In this document: positions 6,481 through 62,416 of the stretch, piece by piece | Layout of the letters: each line of letters begins with the position of its first letter | Numbering within the stretch: the first letter of the stretch is position 1 | Program-made: the position numbers and the translations under genes | The notes under the pieces: generated by a model | What the model was told of the DNA's origin: nothing | Database searches by the model: none | Seen by the model: the letters and a program-made list of their open reading frames with translations, nothing else | Source of the DNA: Eublepharis macularius | Lineage: Eukaryota; Chordata; Lepidosauria; Squamata; Eublepharidae | DNA length: 64,000 nt | NCBI RefSeq assembly: GCF_028583425.1 | Contig: NC_072798.1 | Coordinates: forward strand, 8,372,501 to 8,436,500 | Reading direction: 5' to 3'

Positions 6481-6644
6481 TTATTTTTCAAGAAGCGTAT
6501 TGGTTTCATAAAAGTAGTTCTTAGTTCTTAAAGTTACTTCCTTTACTCTCATTCACACAGATCTCTTCTAAGGCTTCACACACAGTTAGCCTCTTTCTCT
6601 AACTCAATATTTGTCTCACAGAAATGCTTAAAACTCCTCAGGCA

Positions 6645-7340
6645 GCACACAGCTAGCCTCTCTTTCTCTGACTCTCATTCACAGAAATATGAAACCTGCT
6701 CAGGCAGCCCACAGCTCGCCTCTCTTTCCCTGACTGAGTGTCCTTTCACAAACATGCTCAGTTCAGGTTTCACACAGGTCATATTTCTCTCATAAACACT
6801 TCAACATATTCAGGCAGCACACAGCTAGCCTCTCTTTCTCTGACTCTCATTCACAGAAATATTAAACCTGCTCAGGCAGCACACAGCTGGCCTCTCTTTC
6901 CCTGACTGAGTAATTTCACAAACATGCTCAGTTCAGGTTCCACACAGGTTATATTTCATAAATACTTCAACATACTCAGGCAGCACACAGCTAGCCTCTC
7001 TTTCTCTGACTCTCATTCACAGAAATATTAAACCTGCTCAGGCAGCACACAGCTGGCCTCTCTTTCCCTGACTGAGTAATTTCACAAACATGCTCAGTTC
7101 AGGTTCCACACAGGTTATATTTCATAAATACTTCAACATACTCAGGCAGCACACAGCTAGCCTCTCTTTCTCTGACTCTCATTCACAGAAATATTAAACC
7201 TGCTCAGGCAGCACACAGCTGGCCTCTCTTTCCCTGACTGAGTAATTTCACAAACATGCTCAGATCAGGTTCCACACAGGTTATATTTCATAAATACTTC
7301 AACATACTCAGGCAGCACACAGCTAGCCTGCTTTCTTCTG
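6645..7340. repeat. 166-bp tandem repeat (minisatellite)
   Basis: The word CAGGCAGCACACAGCTAGCC recurs at 6811, 6977, 7143 and 7309, an exact 166-bp period. A looser copy lies upstream from about 6645. Each unit is itself two related halves (CACAGCTAGCCTCTCTTT and CACAGCTGGCCTCTCTTT). The three full units are nearly identical, so the amplification is recent. Confidence 0.9.
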
Positions 7341-7365
7341 TCTGAAACCTTTCTCCTTGCATTGA

Positions 7366-7595
7366 TCCAGAGGAGTTAGCCATGTTAGTCTGTAGTAGCA
7401 AAATCAAAAAGTCCAGTAGCACCTTTAAGGCTAACCAATTTTATTGTAGCATAAGCTTTCGAGAATCAAGTTCTCTTCGTCAGATGCATAGTACAGAAAC
7501 GGTTCTATGCATCTGACGAAGAGAACTTGATTCTCAAAAGCTTATGCTACAATAAAATTGGTTAGTCTTAAAGGTGCTACTGGACTCTTGGATCT
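7366..7595. repeat. Hammerhead-like short repeat, head-to-head pair
   Basis: A left arm on the minus strand and a right arm on the plus strand meet at a central ATGCAT...ATGCAT. The minus-strand arm at 7447-7489 keeps CTGACGA, stem GAGAA with TTCTC, GAAA, GC TTAT GC and T. The plus arm at about 7510-7560 has AAAA in place of GAAA. The flanks carry the family phrases GAGGAGTTAGCC and GTCCAGTAGCACCTTTAAG. Confidence 0.75.
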
Positions 7596-7953
7596 TTCTC
7601 CTTGCACTGTCAGTCTAAACTGCATTCACTCCACCCACACTCTCAGTCATCAACCAATCACATCACTCACTCTTCCCTCTCTCACCCCCCACTCTTCACC
7701 TAGCTCAAACCAAGCATTTAAAGACACATGCACACATTTACTTGGAATCTTTACAATCTTCCTCAGGAGCCTTGCTGGGCAATGGGACAATCTTAAATGG
7801 ATGAAATTCCTGTGGGTTTTATACTTAGTGCCATATATTTTTCTGGGAAACTTGTAAGAGCAAGTATATGAACCTCCCTGAAACTTGACAGCCAGGCCTT
7901 TCAGATGCCGGTGCTAGAACTTGCTGCAGCCTCATCCTAGAGCTGTTTACTGA

Positions 7954-8157
7954 GAGCCAAGCTACAAGCGACGCCTGACACAGGTTGGACACTTGTCAGC
8001 TTCCCTCAAGTTTTGATGGGAAATGTAGGCGTCCTGGTCTTGCAGCTGTAATGAAGAGCCAAGCTGTAAAACCAGGACGCCTACATTTCCCATCAAAACT
8101 TGAGGCAAGCTGACAAGTGTCCAACCTGTGTAAGACGCCCCTTGTAGCTTGGCTCTC
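7954..8157. mobile_element. Foldback MITE, relative of 5121-5238
   Basis: Ends GAGCCAAGCTACAAG and CTTGTAGCTTGGCTC. Two arms of about 90 bp (sharing CATTTCCCATCAAAACTTGA in opposite directions) surround a short centre, so the whole element is one long hairpin. No clean target duplication is seen, unlike the 118-bp relative. Confidence 0.7.
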
Positions 8158-8525: not shown

Positions 8526-9540
8526 GGTGGTGGGGAAACAAATATTTTTTAGATGTTGCAACAGAAACACCTATTGACAGCCCAGAGGAAGACGCCCTTT
8601 GTTTTGAGGAAGAGGCACCCACAAGCGGTGCAAATTGTGGAAACAAGGGGTGAGGGGTGTTCAGTTTTAGAACATCCGTTAATTGCAAGATGATGTAGAA
8701 TGTGCACGCTCCTGTTGGTGGGAAGCACCCTGAAAAATCGCAGCAACATCACAGCGACATCATTGATTTGGAGCTGGATGTGCAAGGGTGGAGGGCACCT
8801 TCCTTGGAGGGGGGGGGCGGGGGGAATGACAGGTCTCTCTTACCTCCCTATCTATGAGGTTACAGTTTGTGTGAGTGTGGGGGAAAGGCGGTGTCACGGT
8901 CATAGGATCATTGATGGGCTGTGATTCTTCAAGAATCTTTCATCGTTCTCTTGTTCTCAGGAAAGGTTGAAACCGCATTATCTAATTGGTTGGACCCAAA
9001 GGAACACATATTTGCATAGAGCCAGGCTCCATTCACGGTGGCCATTATTGTCCCTTTTTCCAAAAAAAAAAATCACTAAATTCTAACCAGGTTTAGATGA
9101 GAACAGAATAGTTCTCTCGAACAGCTCACATTAACAGTATCCTTAATTTAAATGATTCTGTCAATCTGTGCTAATCTCTTCCTTGAAATGTGCACATCCT
9201 TTGGTGGTGGCGGAGCATGGGTTTTCACAATCAATATTGTGATCGAAATCCGGCAAAACCGCGCTTCCGAGTATCCGTAGAGGAGATTCTGGGAGTTTTT
9301 ACCCACTATGAGTGTAGGTAGTCGTGAGGACTCTTCTAAGTCTCATAGAGGGAGGGGAGGATGGGAGCTGCACCAGAGGGATGGGCATAGGGCAAAGGCT
9401 GAGGAGAAACTTGTGAATGGCTCCAGAGTGGAGCAGAAAGGCAGCCAACGAAATAAGTGCCAGTGCCTTTAATAAGCAAATTAGACCACCACCTTGCCTC
9501 CAAATGTGTAGGGGCAAGCTGTCTTTGGTTAGGAGGAAAG
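8526..9540. other. Intergenic stretch, no gene seen
   Basis: Mostly unassigned sequence upstream of the TRAM1-side tandem array. A G-rich run (G9CG6) lies near 8808-8824. Open frames here have no recognisable family features. Confidence 0.5.
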
Positions 9541-25013
<15,473 letters not shown>

Positions 25014-31239: not shown

Positions 31240-31500
31240 CTGTTAGGATTTCCAGGGTGTGCGCTTTCAAGAGTCAAGTTCTCTTCGTCATATGCATGGT
31301 ACAGAAACTTGTCAAATATAGACCATGCATCTGTACCATGCATCTGACGAAGAGAACTTGATTCTCGAAAGCTTAAGCTACAATAAAATTGGTTAGTCTT
31401 AAAGGTGCTACTGGACTCTTTGATTTTGCTACCACAGACTAACACGGCTAACTCCTCTGCTTTCAAGAGTCAAGCTCTCTTCATCAGATACAATGGCTGA
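31240..31500. repeat. Hammerhead-like repeat, head-to-head pair
   Basis: The plus unit starting CTGACGA at 31343 keeps stem GAGAA/TTCTC, then GAAA and GC TTAA GC, followed by TTGGTTAGTCTTAAAGGTGC and ACTAACACGGCTAACTCCTC. A shorter minus-strand arm precedes it, with ATGCAT words at the junction. A trailing partial unit lies at about 31460-31495. Confidence 0.75.
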
Positions 31501-32035: not shown

Positions 32036-32212
32036 AGATCCAGAGGAGTTAGCCGTGTTAGTCTGTAGTAGCAAAATCAAAAAGAGTCCAGTAGCACCTT
32101 TAAGACTAACCAATGCATGCATCTGACGAAGAGAACTTGATTCTCTAAAGCTTATGCTACAATAAAATGGGTTAGTCTTAAAGGTGCTACTGGACTCTTT
32201 TTGATTGTGTAT
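32036..32212. repeat. Hammerhead-like repeat, complete short form with both flanks
   Basis: GATCCAGAGGAGTTAGCCGT and AGTCCAGTAGCACCTTTAAG on the left, CTGACGAAGAGAACTTGATT in the middle, TTAGTCTTAAAGGTGCTACT on the right. The left and right flanks are inverted copies of each other, so the element as a whole folds back. Confidence 0.7.
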
Positions 32213-32399
32213 TTTCAGAGCTCCAAGGAGGAGCCAAATTCACTGTCTCCTTTACCTCCTGCTCACCTCCACTTTTTTTATTTGTAAAGGTAGAAATTGT
32301 GTGCCTAAACAAATTTCAGTCCATACTGCTGGGGAAGGTGGGAGTTTTTGAGAGGCAGAAAAACAGACTTGGTTGTTTCAGGCGGTCTGTAATTGGTCT

Positions 32400-32860
32400 G
32401 AAGGAGAAGAGCAAGATTTCGGGTCCAGCAGCACCTTAGAGACCCACTAGATTTTCAGAGTGTGGGCTTTCGAGAGTCAGAACTCCTCAATCAGAGGAGT
32501 TAGCAAAATAGTAAAGAGTCCAGTAGCACCTTTTAAGACTAACCAACTTTATTGTAGCATACGCTTTGGAGAACCACAGCTCTCTTGGTCAGATGCAACT
32601 TTATTGTAGCATACGCTTTGGAGAACCACAGCTCTCTTGGTCAGATGCAACTTTATTGTAGCATACGCTTTGGAGAACCACAGCTCTCTTGGTCAGATGC
32701 AACTTTATTGTAGCAGAACCTTTGGAGAACCACAGCTCTCTTGGTCAGATGCATCTGACCAAGAGAGCTGTGGTCCTCGAAAGCTTATGCTATAATAAAG
32801 TGTGTTAGTCTTAAAGGTGCTGCAGAGCTCCCGAAAGGTGCTGCTGGACCCGAATCTTGT
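32400..32860. repeat. Hammerhead-like repeats with a 52-bp tandem array
   Basis: A diverged copy (GAAGAGCAAGATTTCGGGTC ... GGGCTTTCGAGAGTCAG) is followed by four minus-strand units at 32558, 32610, 32662 and 32714, exactly 52 bp apart. A GATGCATC centre then leads to one plus-strand unit at 32755. The array units share CTGACCA and CAAA in place of CTGANGA and GAAA, so both core boxes are altered, while the plus unit keeps GAAA. Confidence 0.85.
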
Positions 32861-33355
32861 TCTTAGACTTGGTTGTGTTTCTGCAAAACGTCTTGCCTAG
32901 ATGGTGTTTCTTTCCCACCACACTGGTTAGTCCGAAGAGGGTGGACTTGGAACTTGGATTGCCTTCCTTCCTCTGCAGCCTCTGTTTCCCCTCCGCAGAC
33001 CCTTCCAGTAGCCCCCTCCCTCGTTCTCCTCTTCCTAGTATTCTCATCCTTGCACAGAGCTGCTTTCCCAGCTTCTCCCTCCCCTTTTTCCCTCTGGGTG
33101 GAAATCAAATGCCATTGGCCCGGGTTGGGCTCCGTCCCGCCCTCCTCGGCTGCCTGGCCCTGTGTGTGCACACGGCGAGGCGGGGAAGCGGCTTGCATCA
33201 ACGGCACGGAGCTTTCCCCAGCATCCACCTCCGCTGCTTCTTTCTTGTAGCCCCCAAGAATGAAATTTGGGACAAAGGCAGAGGAAAAGAGCGCTTAAAA
33301 GGCATCCTCTCGGGCTGAGCCCTTGATAAAGCGTTCGGGAGGAGTTGGTGTCAGG
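32861..33355. other. GC-moderate stretch before the tRNA gene
   Basis: Several overlapping open frames on both strands reflect base composition. None shows a family motif. Nothing else is seen. Confidence 0.4.
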
Positions 33356-33449
33356 GCTCCAGTGGCGCAATCGGTTAGCGCGCGGTACTTATACAGCAGT
33401 ACACAGCAGAGCAATGCCGAGGTTGTGAGTTCGAGCCTCACCTGGAGCA
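33356..33449 (+). tRNA. tRNA-Ile (anticodon UAU) with a 20-nt intron
   Basis: Acceptor stem GCTCCAG pairs with CTGGAGC and is followed by discriminator A at 33449. A box TGGCGCAATCGG and B box GAGTTCGAGCC are present. The anticodon stem CGGTA pairs with TGCCG (one G-U). The anticodon TAT is at 33390-33392, followed by A37 and a 20-nt intron (33394-33413) before the 3' half. It matches the vertebrate intron-containing tRNA-Ile-UAU, which decodes AUA. It reads as an intact, functional gene; its 3' CCA is not encoded, as expected for a nuclear eukaryotic tRNA. Confidence 0.95.
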
Positions 33450-33455
33450 CATGTC

Positions 33456-34247: not shown

Positions 34248-34984
34248 CTTGTAATAATTTGAAAACAATGCAATACAAACAAGATAATGCATACAATAAA
34301 CTATAAGCCATGCAAACTGTGGCTCACACAGGCTATGTTTAATATATGGATAAGCTTTTGCCGCCCACTTGCAATATAGGTGAACACAGCTAACAATTTT
34401 CTTCTTTTAACTACTATTTTTCTATTTGAAGGGAAACGGGGCAGGGGGAGAGGAAAGAAAGAAGGATGTTTATTTGCAGCTGGTCCAAAAGCTCGTATGC
34501 TACTGCTGCGTTCCCTAATGAACAGCTTACTAAACTCTTTTAACATGATATATATGGAATATACAGCAATATCTATTAGTGCACATAGATTAGCGGAGAG
34601 ATTGGAACTGCATTATCAAAGGAAGACGCGTGTGATAAAATCACAGTCTGGGATAGACCGATTTGACATAGAATCTGAAGAAGTCAGAGGAATATTCAAC
34701 ATTTATAATTCTCAGGGTGTCCTGAGGTAGAGGCTGGCTGAAACTGACAGTGGAAATCTTAAGATCTCAGCGCTCTTTTACTGAAATCCATCTGCTCAAA
34801 GTTGAGAATCAGATTCACTATACAGGTAACAGTGTTGAATTCTATGCAATATAAGCACTTCTAAAAACCATTGAAATGAACAAAAAATCAAGCAGATGTT
34901 AAAGTTTATTTCTGCTTTTCTCGCTAAGACTCAAAGCAGATTAGGCAATGTAAGTTAACAAAATCAAAAGGACGTGACATCAAA
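34248..34984. other. Intergenic stretch with an unassigned open frame
   Basis: A plus frame at 34380-34730 (116 residues) shows no motif I recognise. Nothing else is seen. Confidence 0.35.
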
Positions 34985-35150
34985 ATCAAAAGAACGGTGG
35001 TTCTCAAAAACGTATGCTACAGTAAAGTTGGTTAGTCTTAAAGGTGCTACTGGACTCTTTTACTATTTACTCTTTTTACTATTTTACTATTTAATTTTAC
35101 TCTTTTACTATTTTGCTACTACAGACTAACACAGCTAACTCCTCTACATC
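34985..35150 (+). repeat. Hammerhead-like repeat, right half
   Basis: GGTGGTTCTCAAAAACGTAT, GTTGGTTAGTCTTAAAGGTG, then expanded TTTTACTATTT words and CTAACACAGCTAACTCCTCT. The left core box is missing. It abuts the 5' end of the CR1 element. Confidence 0.6.
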
Positions 35151-35594
35151 TAATAAGCAATGCAGAGCAGAGTCACCTGGGCTCAGGAGCACATGGTCTG
35201 CAGCTGCTAGAGGAGGTAAGGGCTTTTTGCCTTTCTTGGCTGTGGTGGGTTAAGCTGAGAAGCTAAGGGTGGTCCTCTCTAGCTTTGGGGCTTTTTGTGT
35301 GTACTTTTGTGTTGATTTGAGTGTAGTTTTGAGGCTGAGTGTGTTTGGGCTTGATTGTGTTTGAGGGTGAGTGTGTTTGTAAGGCTGCTGGGGGTTGCTG
35401 GAGTACAAGCCACACACCCCCTTTGTGCTCACCTCCTGTGCTTAGCAGGAAGTGACCTTTTGCATTGAAAAGGCAACTGCTGGGCAGGGGCGCGAGCCTT
35501 TGGCGCGAGCTAAAGGGCTCTTGGCCTGTGGCTCTTAGCCGGGGGATCATAGCCGTTTTCTTTCCTCTTAGTGTGTTATTCCTAAAACAGATTA

Positions 35595-36503
35595 ATGAAG
35601 TCAGAATGCCAGCAGGGGGTTGGGGGCTTTCCAGTGTATTGCACTGAGTGTCACATGTATGACTATCTGCCTTCTGGTCAGAAGTCCTGGATGTGTGCTC
35701 GCTGCAAGGAGCTCCTGGTTCTCAGGGAACGAGTACGTACCCTTGAGGCCAAGGTGGCTGACCTGGAGAAGCGGAGACAGTTAGATAGGCACGAGGACAA
35801 GATTCTCAGGGACAAGATAGATGTGTCCCACTCTAAAAATGGCAGCATTCTTGTTGTCAAGGAGAATGAGGATCTTGTGGAATCAGGGCACCGTACTGAG
35901 GATAAGGGGAACATGCCCTCAGAAGGGACCTCTTCTTCAGTTGGTGAGCAGGTTTCCCTTCGCATCAAGGAACCATCCCTGGGTGGGGCGGGAGGGAGGC
36001 TCTTGGTAGTTGGTGATTCGATCCTTAGACAAGTAGATAGCTGGGTGGCACAACCGCGTTCTGACCGTATGGTGACTTGCCTGCCTGGTGCGAAGGTAGC
36101 GGACATTACGCGTGTTATAGATAGGCTGGTGGATAGTGCTGGGGAAGAGTCAGCGGTCGTGGTCCATGTTGGAACCAACGATGTTGGGAAATGCAGTCGT
36201 GAGGTCTTGGAACAAAAATTTAGGCTGTTAGGCAGGAGACTCAAGGCCAGGACCTCCAAGGTAGCCTTCTCAGAAGTGCTACCTGTTCCACGCGCAGGGC
36301 CAGAGAGACAAACGCAGATCAGGAGTCTCAATGCGTGGATGAGACGATGGTGTAGGGAGGAAGGGTTCAAGTTTGTTAGGCACTGGGATTCTTTTTGGGA
36401 CAAGCGGGAGCTGTACAAGAGAGACGGTCTCCACTTGTCCCGAGAAGGAACCCGGCTGCTGGCACTTAAAATCAAAAAGGTGGCAGAGCAGTTTTTAAAC
36501 TAA
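35595..36503 (+). CDS. CR1 ORF1 protein (zinc finger, coiled coil, SGNH esterase)
   Basis: 302 residues, open throughout. The N-terminus has two Cys pairs (YCTECHMYDY and MCARCKELL), a PHD/zinc-ribbon-like finger, followed by a charged heptad-like coiled coil (RVRTLEAKVADLEKR). The C-terminal half is an SGNH-hydrolase (esterase) domain: LLVVGDSILR (nucleophile Ser), VVHVGTNDVGK (Asn), and YKRDGLHLSREG (Asp and His). CR1 ORF1 esterases are thought to act on lipids or membranes and to bind RNA during retrotransposition. All catalytic-type residues are present. The start at 35595 precedes the finger; no better in-frame ATG is evident. Confidence 0.88.
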   Translation: MKSECQQGVGGFPVYCTECHMYDYLPSGQKSWMCARCKELLVLRERVRTLEAKVADLEKRRQLDRHEDKILRDKIDVSHSKNGSILVVKENEDLVESGHRTEDKGNMPSEGTSSSVGEQVSLRIKEPSLGGAGGRLLVVGDSILRQVDSWVAQPRSDRMVTCLPGAKVADITRVIDRLVDSAGEESAVVVHVGTNDVGKCSREVLEQKFRLLGRRLKARTSKVAFSEVLPVPRAGPERQTQIRSLNAWMRRWCREEGFKFVRHWDSFWDKRELYKRDGLHLSREGTRLLALKIKKVAEQFLN

Positions 36504-36603
36504 ATGCTAGGGGAAAGCCGACAAGAGATAAAGTGTTCAGGATGGTTCATCTCAGAGAGATGAAGGGCTAGGTATAACACTTCTGCAGGGAGATAGATTA
36601 GAG

Positions 36604-39495
36604 TTGTCAACTGAGATGGAGACAAACAGTGCAGATGACCTAACTACGTCTCGAGGCAAAGTGTGTCGGGGAAGTTACAGGTGTTTATATACAAATGCTA
36701 GAAGTGTCCGAGGTAAAATTGGGGAGCTGGAATGTTTAGTGTTGGGCGAATCCATAGACATTGTGGGCATATCAGAAACTTGGTGGGATGAGGAAAATCA
36801 GTGGGACACGGTGATTCCTGGATATAAATTATATTGGAAGGATAGGGAGGGAAGGGTTGGTGGTGGGGTGGCTCTATATGTCAGAGAAGGTATACATTCC
36901 AGTAAGATTGAGAAGGTAACTGAATTAGATTCGCTTCTGGAAATGCTATGGGTTGAAATTACGGGCCCAAATGGAAACTTAACTGTGGGAGTTTGTTATC
37001 GCCCTCCAGATCAGAAAATAGAGGATTATAAAATGATGACAGGATTAAAGATGGCTGCTAAACAAAAAAACTGTGTTGTAATGGGTGATTTTAACTACCC
37101 ACACATTGACTGGGCCAATGGGTGTTCGAATCGGGGGAGAGAAAGTGAGTTTCTAGACTGTCTCAATGACTGTGCTATGGAACAGATGGTTACAGAACCT
37201 ACTAGGGGAGAGGTGATCCTGGATTTGGTCCTCAGTAATGCTGAAGACCTGGTGAGAGATGTAAATGTGATTGCACCACTTGGGAACAGTGACCATAATG
37301 TTATTGAGTACAACCTATGTATAAATAGGAAATTGCCAAATAAGACCAACACAGCCATGTTTAACTTCAAAAGGGGTAACTTTTCTGATATGAGGGGGTA
37401 CGTGAAGAAGAAACTGAAAGGGAAAGTAAAAAAGGTCAAAACACTTGGGGAATCTTGGAGACTATTTAAAACTACAATCCTGGAAGCTCAAATTAAATAT
37501 ATACCGCTGGTTAGGAAAGGCACAAATAGGTTTAGGAAAAGGCCAGCATGGTTAACAAGCAATGTAATAGAAGCTGTAAAAGGTAAAAAGGATTCTTTTA
37601 GGCAGTGGAAAACTAGTCGGAGTGAGGTTGATAAAAAGGAGCATAAGCTGTGGCAAAAAAAGTGCAAGTCTGTGATCAGACAGGCAAAAAGGGAATATGA
37701 GGAGCATATTGCAAAGAACATAAAGAAAAACAATAAACAATTCTTTAAATATATTAGAAGTAGGAAACCAGCTAGGGAGGCAGTGGGGCCCTTGGATGAC
37801 CAAGGCGTAAAAGGATTACTAAAGGGTGATAGGGAAATGGCCGAGAAGCTGAATGCGTTCCTTGCTTCTGTCTTCACTGTGGAAGATAAGAAGTGCATGC
37901 CCACTCCGGAAGCACTGACTTTGGGAGGGGTTTTGAAAGACCTGAGTCACATTGAGGTGACGAGAGAGGAGGTTATGCGACTGCTAGATAATTTAAAAAC
38001 TGATAAATCACCGGGCCCAGATGGCATACATCCAAGAGTTCTGAAAGAACTCAAGTGTGAACTTGTAGATCTCCTCACAAAAATATGTAATCTGTCATTA
38101 AACTCTGCATCTGTTCCTGAGGACTGGAAGGTAGCTAATGTTGTCCCCATCTTTAAAAAAGGTTCCAGGGGAGATCCGGGAAATTACAGGCCAGTCAGCC
38201 TGACGTCAATACCGGGTAAGTTGGTGGAAACTATTATCAAAAATAAAATTAGTGGGCACATTGATGACCAAAAGCTGATGAGGAAAACTCAGCATGGGTT
38301 CTGTAAGGGAAGATCTTGTCTCACCAATCTGTTAGAGTTCTTTGAGGGAGTGAACGAACAAGTGGACAAGGGAGACCCGATAGATATTGTTTATCTTGAC
38401 TTCCAGAAAGCTTTTGACAAAGTTCCTCATCAAAGGCTCCTAAGTAAGCTCAGTAGCTATGGGATAAAGGGCCAAGTCCTCTTGTGGATCGAAAACTGGC
38501 TAATTAATAGGAAACAGAGAGTGAGTATAAACGGGCACTTCTCACAGTGGAGGGTGGTGAGCAGTGGGGTGCCACAGGGGTCGGTATTGGGTCCAATGCT
38601 TTTTAACTTGTTTATTAATCTAAACTGTTTATTAATCTAAACTTATTAATGATTTGGAATTGGGATTAAGCAGTGAAGTGGCTAAATTTGCAGATGACAC
38701 GAAATTGTTCAGGGTAGTGAAAGCCAGAGAGGATTGTGAGGCACTCCAAAGGGATCTGTCGAGGCTAGAAGAGTGGGCATCCATGTGGCAAATGAGGTTC
38801 AATGTAGCCAAGTGCAAAGTAATGCACATTGGAACCAAAAATCCAAAATATAAATACAAGTTGATGGGGTCTGAACTGGCGGAGACTGACCAAGAGAGAG
38901 ATCTTGGAGTCATGATAACTCACTAAAAACGTCAGCACAGTGTGTGACTGCCATAAAAAAAGCTAATGCTATGCTAGGGGTTATTAGGAAAGGGATTGAA
39001 AACAAATCAGCCAGTATCATAATGCCTCTGTATAAATCGATGGTGAGGCCTCATTTGGAGTACTGTGTACAGTTCTGGTCGCCACACCTTAAAAAAGATA
39101 TCATAGCACTGGAAAAAGTACAGAGAAGGGCAACTAAAATGATTAAAGGGTTGGAACACTTTCCCTATGAGGAAAGATTGAGGCGCTTGGGGCTCTTTAG
39201 CCTGGAGAAAAGACGACTGAGGGGAGACATGATAGAGGTTTACAAGATAATGCACGGGTTAGAGAAGGTAGAGAAAGATGTGTTTTTCTCCCTTTCTCAC
39301 AATACAAGAACTCGTGGGCACTCTATGAAATTATTGAGCAGTCGGGTTAGAACAGATAGAAGAAAATACTTTACACAAAGGGTGATAAACACATGGAATT
39401 CGTTGCCACAGGAGGTGGTGGCAGCTACAAGCATTGCCAGCTTCAAGAGGGGACTGGACAAATATATGGAGCAGAGGTCCATTAATGGCTATTAG
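36604..39495 (+). pseudogene. CR1 ORF2 (endonuclease and reverse transcriptase), interrupted
   Basis: Open at 36604-38640 (678 residues), then 38654-38926 and 38944-39495. The APE-type endonuclease shows YTNARSVRGKIGEL, GISETWW, VMGDFNYPHIDW and GNSDHNVIEY. The reverse transcriptase shows KSPGPDGIHPRVLKEL, NYRPVSLTSIPGKL, YLDFQKAFDKVPH, GVPQGSVLGPMLFN and, after the first break, FADDTKLF. The C-terminus ends LDKYMEQRSINGY. The first break comes from a 17-bp local duplication (TTTATTAATCTAAACT-type unit at 38611 and 38628) placed between the LFNLFIN and NDLELG codons, just before the FADD box. The second, near 38924, is a small frame change after GVMITH. The element cannot now make a single ORF2 protein. 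Confidence 0.88.
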
Positions 39496-39969
39496 CCACA
39501 GGAGATAGATGGTATTCTCTTTGTGGGGAGGTGGTGCTCTGTTGTCTTGGTGCTGGAAGGAAGGCAGTGGGAGGGCTTCTGGTGTCCTGGCCTCACTGAC
39601 AGTCCTTTAGATGTCACTGGATTTCTAGCCACTGTGTGTGACAGAATGTTGGACTGGATGGGCCACTGGCCTGATCCAACATGGCTTTGCTTATGTTCTT
39701 AAGTAGCATTACAAAACTTTGAAACAAAGCAAAAAAAAAACCCTCCTAGACATCAAACCTTAGAATTTTAAATGGTGTTGAATACATCAAGATTGTGTTT
39801 TTTGTTTCTCTTATAATGATGATAGAAATCATTTGAGATGATAGAGATATTTTCATGCATCAATAGCTCTGTAGCAGCTGTTTGTTAGGTCATGTATTGA
39901 TCAAAAATCACTGCCACAACTAAATTTGTGAAGTTCTAGAGAAAGCTGTAGTTACTTGTAAGTAGTTTC

Positions 39970-40065
39970 AGGTAGGTAGCTGTGGGTAGAAGAGCAAGAT
40001 TCAAGTCTAGTAGCACCTTAAAGACCAACTAGATTTCAGGGTACGAGCTTTTGAGAGTCAAACCT
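39970..40065. repeat. Diverged hammerhead-family repeat
   Basis: TAGAAGAGCAAGATTCAAGT, CTAGTAGCACCTTAAAGACC and CTTTTGAGAGTCAAACCTCT follow the order of the family's second subfamily. Confidence 0.55.
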
Positions 40066-40089
40066 CTGAAAAAGGGATATAGGAATGAC

Positions 40090-41097: not shown

Positions 41098-41210
41098 AAA
41101 ATAGTAAAAGAATCCAGTAGCACCTTTAAGACTAACCAACTTGATTGTAGCATAAGCTTTGGAGAGCCACAGCTCTCTTCCGTCAGATGCATGACGTCAG
41201 ATGCATTTCA
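41098..41210 (-). repeat. Hammerhead-like repeat, single unit
   Basis: TCCAGTAGCACCTTTAAGAC, TTGATTGTAGCATAAGCTTT, GGAGAGCCACAGCTCTCTTC and CGTCAGATGCATGACGTCAG. The unit has lost part of the GAAA box (GGAAAG context changed to CCAAAG on the minus strand). Confidence 0.65.

Positions 41211-42807: not shown

Positions 42808-62416
<19,609 letters not shown>

Follow-up and report, generated by a model that had tools for sequence, protein, structure and literature searches.

In the 64-kb window (the whole stretch of 64,000 nt of Eublepharis macularius DNA that was analyzed), a frequent repeat, found as 34 core copies or part copies by iterated nhmmer, very probably represents short non-coding terminal pieces of Penelope-like elements (PLEs), each a pseudo-LTR (pLTR) with an optional tail, which carry, near their start, a minimal type I hammerhead lacking its own stem III. 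The core boxes, stems I and II, the head-to-head arms, the one tailed arm per insertion and the target-site duplications were all seen in the sequence. A minimal hammerhead of this stem-III-less kind has already been described for PLEs, and the repeat is another, mostly decayed, member. A common short repeat of this genome is hereby placed in the PLE hammerhead class, and the secondary structure and predicted cut given in a preliminary description of the window are corrected.

The copy singled out in that description reads, from 7487 to 7445 on the minus strand, GCAT CTGACGA A GAGAA CTTGA TTCTC GAAA GC TT ATGC TACA. The conserved boxes lie where they had been placed, which supports the hammerhead-type core. 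The parts of this copy (the named copy), and a second unit, are as follows, all on the minus strand.

7445..7495: minimal hammerhead, named copy, recognized by sequence, fold, pair probabilities, descriptor and intact core
7495-7492 (TGTA) with 7448-7445 (TACA): outer stem I
7491-7488: bulge in stem I, CTAT (4 nt)
7487-7484 (GCAT) with 7452-7449 (ATGC): inner stem I
7483-7477: core box CTGACGA, C3 at 7483
7476: extra A
7475-7471 (GAGAA) with 7465-7461 (TTCTC): stem II, loop CTTGA
7460-7457: second box GAAA, then GC at 7456-7455
7454 and 7453: U16.1 and U17, with the predicted cut between 7453 and 7452
10042..10091: second unit, core intact and inner stem I perfect, at one end of the 52-bp array

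The GCAT directly before CTGACGA pairs with the ATGC after GAAAGCTT to form a perfect 4-bp stem I adjoining C3, and TGTA:TACA extends it beyond the bulge, which lifts the earlier caveat that stem I pairs unconvincingly in single copies. The upstream stem I letters of the named copy recur at 31340. Stem III consists only of the A15.1-(GC)-U16.1 pair, and the order of elements is stem I, CTGACGA, A, stem II, GAAA, GC, U, H, stem I. The unconstrained fold of the named copy was identical to this revised hammerhead, with stem I pair probabilities of 0.94–0.98; in this model the cut is predicted between GCUU and AUGC on the minus strand, at 7453/7452. Stems I and II beside the core were perfect in the 7487 minus and 10091 minus copies, the latter of which (10042-10091) reads GCAT CTGAGGA A GAGAGC TGTG GCTCTC GAAA GC TA ATGC. 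A descriptor composed of a 4-bp stem I, CTGANGA, 0–1 extra base, a stem II of 4–6 bp, GAAA, 1–4 nt and TH, which was devised after inspecting the named copy and is therefore not blind, detected two loci in the whole window, with C3 at 7483 and 10087, both on the minus strand, and gave 1 match when the whole window was dinucleotide-shuffled 300 times. The 14-base core pattern CTGACGAAGAGARC, with up to 2 mismatches, gave 27 matches, as compared with 0.52 expected in shuffles. Fold energies were unremarkable relative to shuffles (the named copy had a z of −1.37 and 10044-10095 one of −1.83, and the remaining six of the eight folded copies lay between −1.11 and +0.75). The covariance-model search of the window that had been suggested as a check matched no Rfam hammerhead family (types I, II, III, HH9 and HH10), even with E up to 10.

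Alignment of the 34 matches, with 8 partial or deleted ones left out, gave 26 rows (24 distinct). All core bases (CUGANGA ... GAAA ... UH) were kept in 5 of the 26 rows, the named copy included, and two of these five also had four stem I pairs; the core was broken in the other 21, mainly at G8 (15 rows) or G12 (10 rows). Classical hammerheads are not known to have an extra A after A9. Here stem II does not follow A9 directly, because nearly all rows have one extra base: the extra A noted in the preliminary description is real, being A in 25 of 26 rows and G in the other, and it is also present in a copy of an older family, family B, at 31491. This A is kept even in most of the rows with dead cores, and its conservation is therefore no proof of function.

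The insertions and other copies are listed below, with the strand where one was assigned.

7365..7589, both arms: insertion I1, whole; minus arm with tail, 3′ end near 7365
I1 plus arm (+): tail-less, ends CTGGACTCTT at 7589
I1 head-to-head junction: GATGCATAG...CTATGCATC
7349..7364 (+): I1 left target-site duplication, CTTTCTCCTTGCATTG, 15/16 identical to the right copy
7594..7609 (+): I1 right target-site duplication, CTTTCTCCTTGCACTG
13242..13439: I2, head-to-head pair, tail on plus arm
13229-13239 and 13444-13454: I2 target-site duplication, ACCAAAGCGTT / ACCAAAGCATT
31279..31458: I3, head-to-head pair, inserted within the hammerhead of an older family B copy
31263-31278 and 31459-31474: I3 duplication, 16 bp exact, GCTTTCAAGAGTCAAG
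32038..32206: I4; minus arm tailed but lacking a hammerhead, plus arm tail-less with a G12>T hammerhead; duplication TGTATTTTCAAAG / TGTATTTTCAGAG
41098..41205 (−): I5, single arm, G12>C and one inserted core base, without tail motif; duplication TTTCACATAGCA
34957..35150: I6; plus arm with tail and degraded hammerhead, short minus partner (by eye)
10924..11254: I7; copies 11049 and 11117 (minus) stand head to head with 11128, 11180 and the truncated 11232 (plus)
9542-10161: I8, includes a 52-bp tandem array
9539..10088 (−): tandem array belonging to I8, about 10.7 copies of a 52-bp unit
32544..32753 (−): second tandem array, four 52-bp units; G8>C and G12>C in all 4 rows, U16.1>G in 3 of them as well
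32376..32864: I9B, family B arms enclosing a family A copy cluster (about 32498-32830); plus B arm and tail of minus B arm read by eye
32365-32376 and 32865-32876: I9B duplication, AGACTTGGTTGT
54909..54996 (+): family B copy, stem I GTGT:GCAC, core lost at G8 and A9
39968..40081 (−): family B copy, degraded core

Minus and plus copies were paired head to head in seven clusters in the window, and ATGCAT was present at the junction in six of these seven pairs, the exception being I2. A 30-base tail motif, the pattern of which matched the window 14 times when as many as 3 mismatches were allowed, as compared with an expectation of 0.04, occurred exactly once per insertion in 7 of the 9 insertions. 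The presence of the tail on one arm is informative in I1, I2 and I4, in which the partner arm reaches a tail-less 3′ end; in I3, I6, I7 and I8 the arm opposite the tailed one is truncated. Target-site duplications, defined as at least 10 matched bases with up to 1 mismatch, were detected in 6 of the 9 insertions, with 10 to 20 matched bases, and by this definition I6, I7 and I8 had none; in the controls, none of the 72 crossed flank pairs exceeded 9 matched bases, and among 3000 random pairs 17 had at least 10. The 20 matched flank bases of I3 include neighbouring element sequence, the exact duplication being 16, and removal of I3 followed by joining of its flanks gave one continuous family B copy. 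The inverted pairs, the junction ATGCAT, the one-arm tail and the target-site duplications support the Penelope-like terminal piece proposed in the preliminary description.

Besides these insertions, 44520-44667 holds a relative of the repeat that is older and more degraded and seems to form a further inverted pair. Family A sequence lies inside older family B sequence at 31263-31474 and at about 32376-32864, which might reflect a preference for the element's own sequence. A 166-bp tandem repeat of 4.2 copies (6637-7336) stands directly before I1.

The same arrangement is known from other PLEs. In the available part of PMC3846280, Penelope inserts are described as pLTRs inverted head to head, with palindromes where the two meet; their target-site duplications measure 8-10 bp, and one of the arms bears a 31-bp tail. 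As far as that part describes them, the Penelope families of Adineta vaga are like the present repeat in their head-to-head inverted pLTRs, junction palindrome, one-arm tail, target-site duplications and solo pLTRs, and differ in the length of the arms (180-218 bp, versus about 75 to 130 nt here) and of the duplications (8-10 bp, versus about 11-16 bp here). For Poseidon of Anolis carolinensis (PAc), the accessible text of PMC11167929 places the hammerhead, which has stems I and II, where pLTR and ORF meet, with the ORF start coinciding with stem II, the cut 26 bp after the ORF start, the start of reverse transcription 111-118 bp into the ORF, a tail of 30-40 bp, and cleavage and extension on both DNA strands. 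Distances were here measured from the start of stem II, chosen because the PAc ORF begins there, with no PAc sequence in the alignment: the predicted cut lies at 23-24 nt, the tailed 3′ ends at 107-114 nt (4 arms), and the tail-less ends at 69-80 nt in three arms and at 52 in a fourth with an internal deletion. Compared by description rather than by alignment, the repeat and PAc are alike in the hammerhead near the stem II/ORF start, the spacings from stem II to the cut and to the reverse transcription starts, the optional 30-40 bp tail and both-strand insertion; unlike PAc, the repeat consists of short arms only, without an ORF. The genomic footprint of inverted pair, one-arm tail and target-site duplication agrees with the priming on both strands that PAc shows in vitro. 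By analogy with PAc, the element protein would nick both DNA strands, reverse transcription would start at internal RNA sites on both strands, and the two cDNAs would grow toward each other until they met close to the stem I palindrome ATGCAT; the product would be an inverted pair.

Inverted arms flanked by target-site duplications would also be expected of a Foldback/MITE-like DNA transposon, in which the arms would be terminal inverted repeats and the likeness to a hammerhead incidental. We regard this explanation as very improbable, because the duplications vary in length (about 11 to 16 bases as read), the arms of one insertion end differently, one tailed and one tail-less, one-armed and tandem forms occur, and strict hammerhead matches are rare in shuffles. 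Several observations count against the assignment to PLEs: the single arm of I5, the I2 junction without ATGCAT, the 3 of 9 insertions without a duplication, the absence of an Rfam hammerhead match, the extra A after A9, the unremarkable fold z-scores and the thin covariation within the window. No ORF for a PLE reverse transcriptase or GIY-YIG domain was found with Pfam in the 15 scanned of 40 ORFs of at least 120 aa, and the reverse transcriptase at 36532-38640 is that of a LINE, because it is accompanied by an APE-type endonuclease. Solo terminal pieces need not carry an ORF. The hammerhead pattern matched 12 loci in viral contigs, which by their look are coding sequence and none of which has the flanks of the repeat, and the tail pattern matched 0 loci in viral contigs and 1 (L013, Arthrobacter) in genome contigs. 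In the literature searched, the core letters were found only in primer lists that are unrelated by title, and no report of a Penelope hammerhead in squamates was found in this limited literature.

The direct tandem arrays of 52-bp units, of which there are two, could suggest instead a retrozyme-like or satellite family, in which the ribozyme would produce small circular RNAs that a PLE mobilizes, and the arrays would be copies of these; the consulted portion of PMC7761336 does link type I hammerheads, circular RNAs and PLE mobilization in animals. The animal units described there are, however, about 150-300 bp rather than 52 bp, and most of the insertions found here are not tandem. In addition, dead cores were found in 11 of the 12 aligned rows from the two arrays, with 10091 as the exception (the seven other aligned units of the I8 array had G8>A in six cases and lacked G8 and A9 in one), and the arrays may therefore be plain DNA duplications. 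Taken with these points, a retrozyme-like origin is very unlikely.

As PLE ribozymes, the copies belong with hammerheads that PMC7761336 and PMC6155905, in the parts available, describe as lacking helix III; the former describes the role of minimal ribozymes as unknown. Core boxes and stems I and II are common to the repeat and to the minimal PLE type I hammerheads (Cervera and de la Pena 2014; Lunse, Weinberg and Breaker 2017), and both have a short palindrome in place of an own stem III and a link to PLE termini, whereas the extra A between A9 and stem II may distinguish the repeat from these published variants, which are known here by second-hand description. Two ribozyme copies in one RNA may pair via the palindrome AGCU, giving a shared 4-bp stem III; copies so paired would cut after GCUU, and the monomer should be slow or inactive unaided. 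A nested dimer with both stems in trans was scored at −13.5 kcal/mol and the best co-fold, a different duplex, at −22.3; if stem I instead forms in cis and stem III in trans, the helices of the dimer cross and lie beyond fold scoring, so that fold programs are neutral on the active dimer. The 225-nt inverted pair of I1 folds into one long hairpin (−145.8 kcal/mol). Since nearly the full length of the ribozyme should be paired with the inverse arm upstream of it, the named copy is probably a fossil at this inverted-pair locus, silent as a ribozyme although its core is intact.

Covariation in the stems was weaker than the preliminary description had stated. The units it named at 10053, 11132 and 31343 exist with the quoted stem II letters (GAGAGC/GCTCTC in 10042-10091 minus, GAGAGC/GTTCTC in 11128-11178 plus, and a stem II identical to that of the named unit in 31340-31387 plus), but the change of stem II on both sides comes down mainly to one pair. 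This pair, at columns 18-25, was G-C in 12, G-U in 8 and A-U in 4 of the 24 distinct rows and varies between subfamilies. Over these rows, pairing was retained in 92.4% of cells in stem II and 72.9% in stem I, and the double changes in stem I, at two pairs, both came from the older copy at 54913. The covariation score was equalled in 3 of 500 shuffles, the number of double-change pairs in 40 of 500 and the number of pair types in 92 of 500, with few independent events; the signal within the window is thin. In 3 of the 4 older family B copies, both sides of stem I pair 2 have changed, from the C-G of family A to U-A, and the fourth, copy 32498, has not kept stem I (1 of 4 pairs formed). The family B changes favour the revised stem I pairing, on few events. 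The hammerhead as first drawn, with a stem III formed by GC-TTAT-GC, the cut after UA and stem I supplied from elsewhere, is extremely unlikely: across the 24 distinct rows, 87.5% of cells retain its two stem III pairs, against 72.9% for stem I, a high retention explained by the position of GC..GC inside one well-kept stretch, but neither pair shows a double change in any of these rows, the second is broken (C-A) in all 4 family B copies, stem I is left unpaired, and the ensemble probability is 0.011, against the values given above for the revised stem I.

G12, the general base according to the accessible part of PMC6155905, was altered in one or more copies in 8 of the 9 family A insertions (to A in 5, C in 2 and T in 1) and was the most changed of 51 columns, while the next three, A13-A15.1, were unchanged; column 24, a subfamily marker, was changed in 7 insertions. 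The G>A changes at G12 are explained by CpG decay, and the excess of changes at G12 over its CpG partner C11.1 was not significant (8/10, p 0.11; 8/11, p 0.23). In five insertions (I1, I2, I7, I8 and I9A) the copies are not all alike at G12, which fits decay after insertion. CpG decay may thus suffice for the G12 losses. If it did not, the inserted copies would derive from uncut, ribozyme-dead RNA. Because only uncut RNA can be a full template, insertions spanning the cut site could be biased to already-dead ribozymes, the element's own hammerhead selecting against active copies and the loss of G12 driving the non-coding arms to high copy number; we consider this proposal unlikely.

Several other features were observed in the window. 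A reading frame near 10.6 kb, which we take to be TRAM1-like, gave no match in a PDB search. Rfam microRNA matches at the inverted pairs (e.g. 31275-31360 and 32710-32793) were weak and below gathering scores, and are explained by the long hairpins. Two further long hairpins on the plus strand, at 8016-8093 (mir-30 match, 43.7 of 50.2 bits) and 53325-53414 (mir-1467 match, 49.3 of 90 bits), likewise scored below the gathering scores and are perhaps inverted-repeat transposons. A LINE remnant at 35586-39495 (+) comprises a GDSL-type ORF followed by an endonuclease/reverse-transcriptase ORF (Pfam), and a further endonuclease piece lies at 49589-50437. A tRNA-Ile gene with anticodon TAT and an apparent intron is located at 33356-33450 (+) (Rfam, 55.3 bits; ARAGORN).
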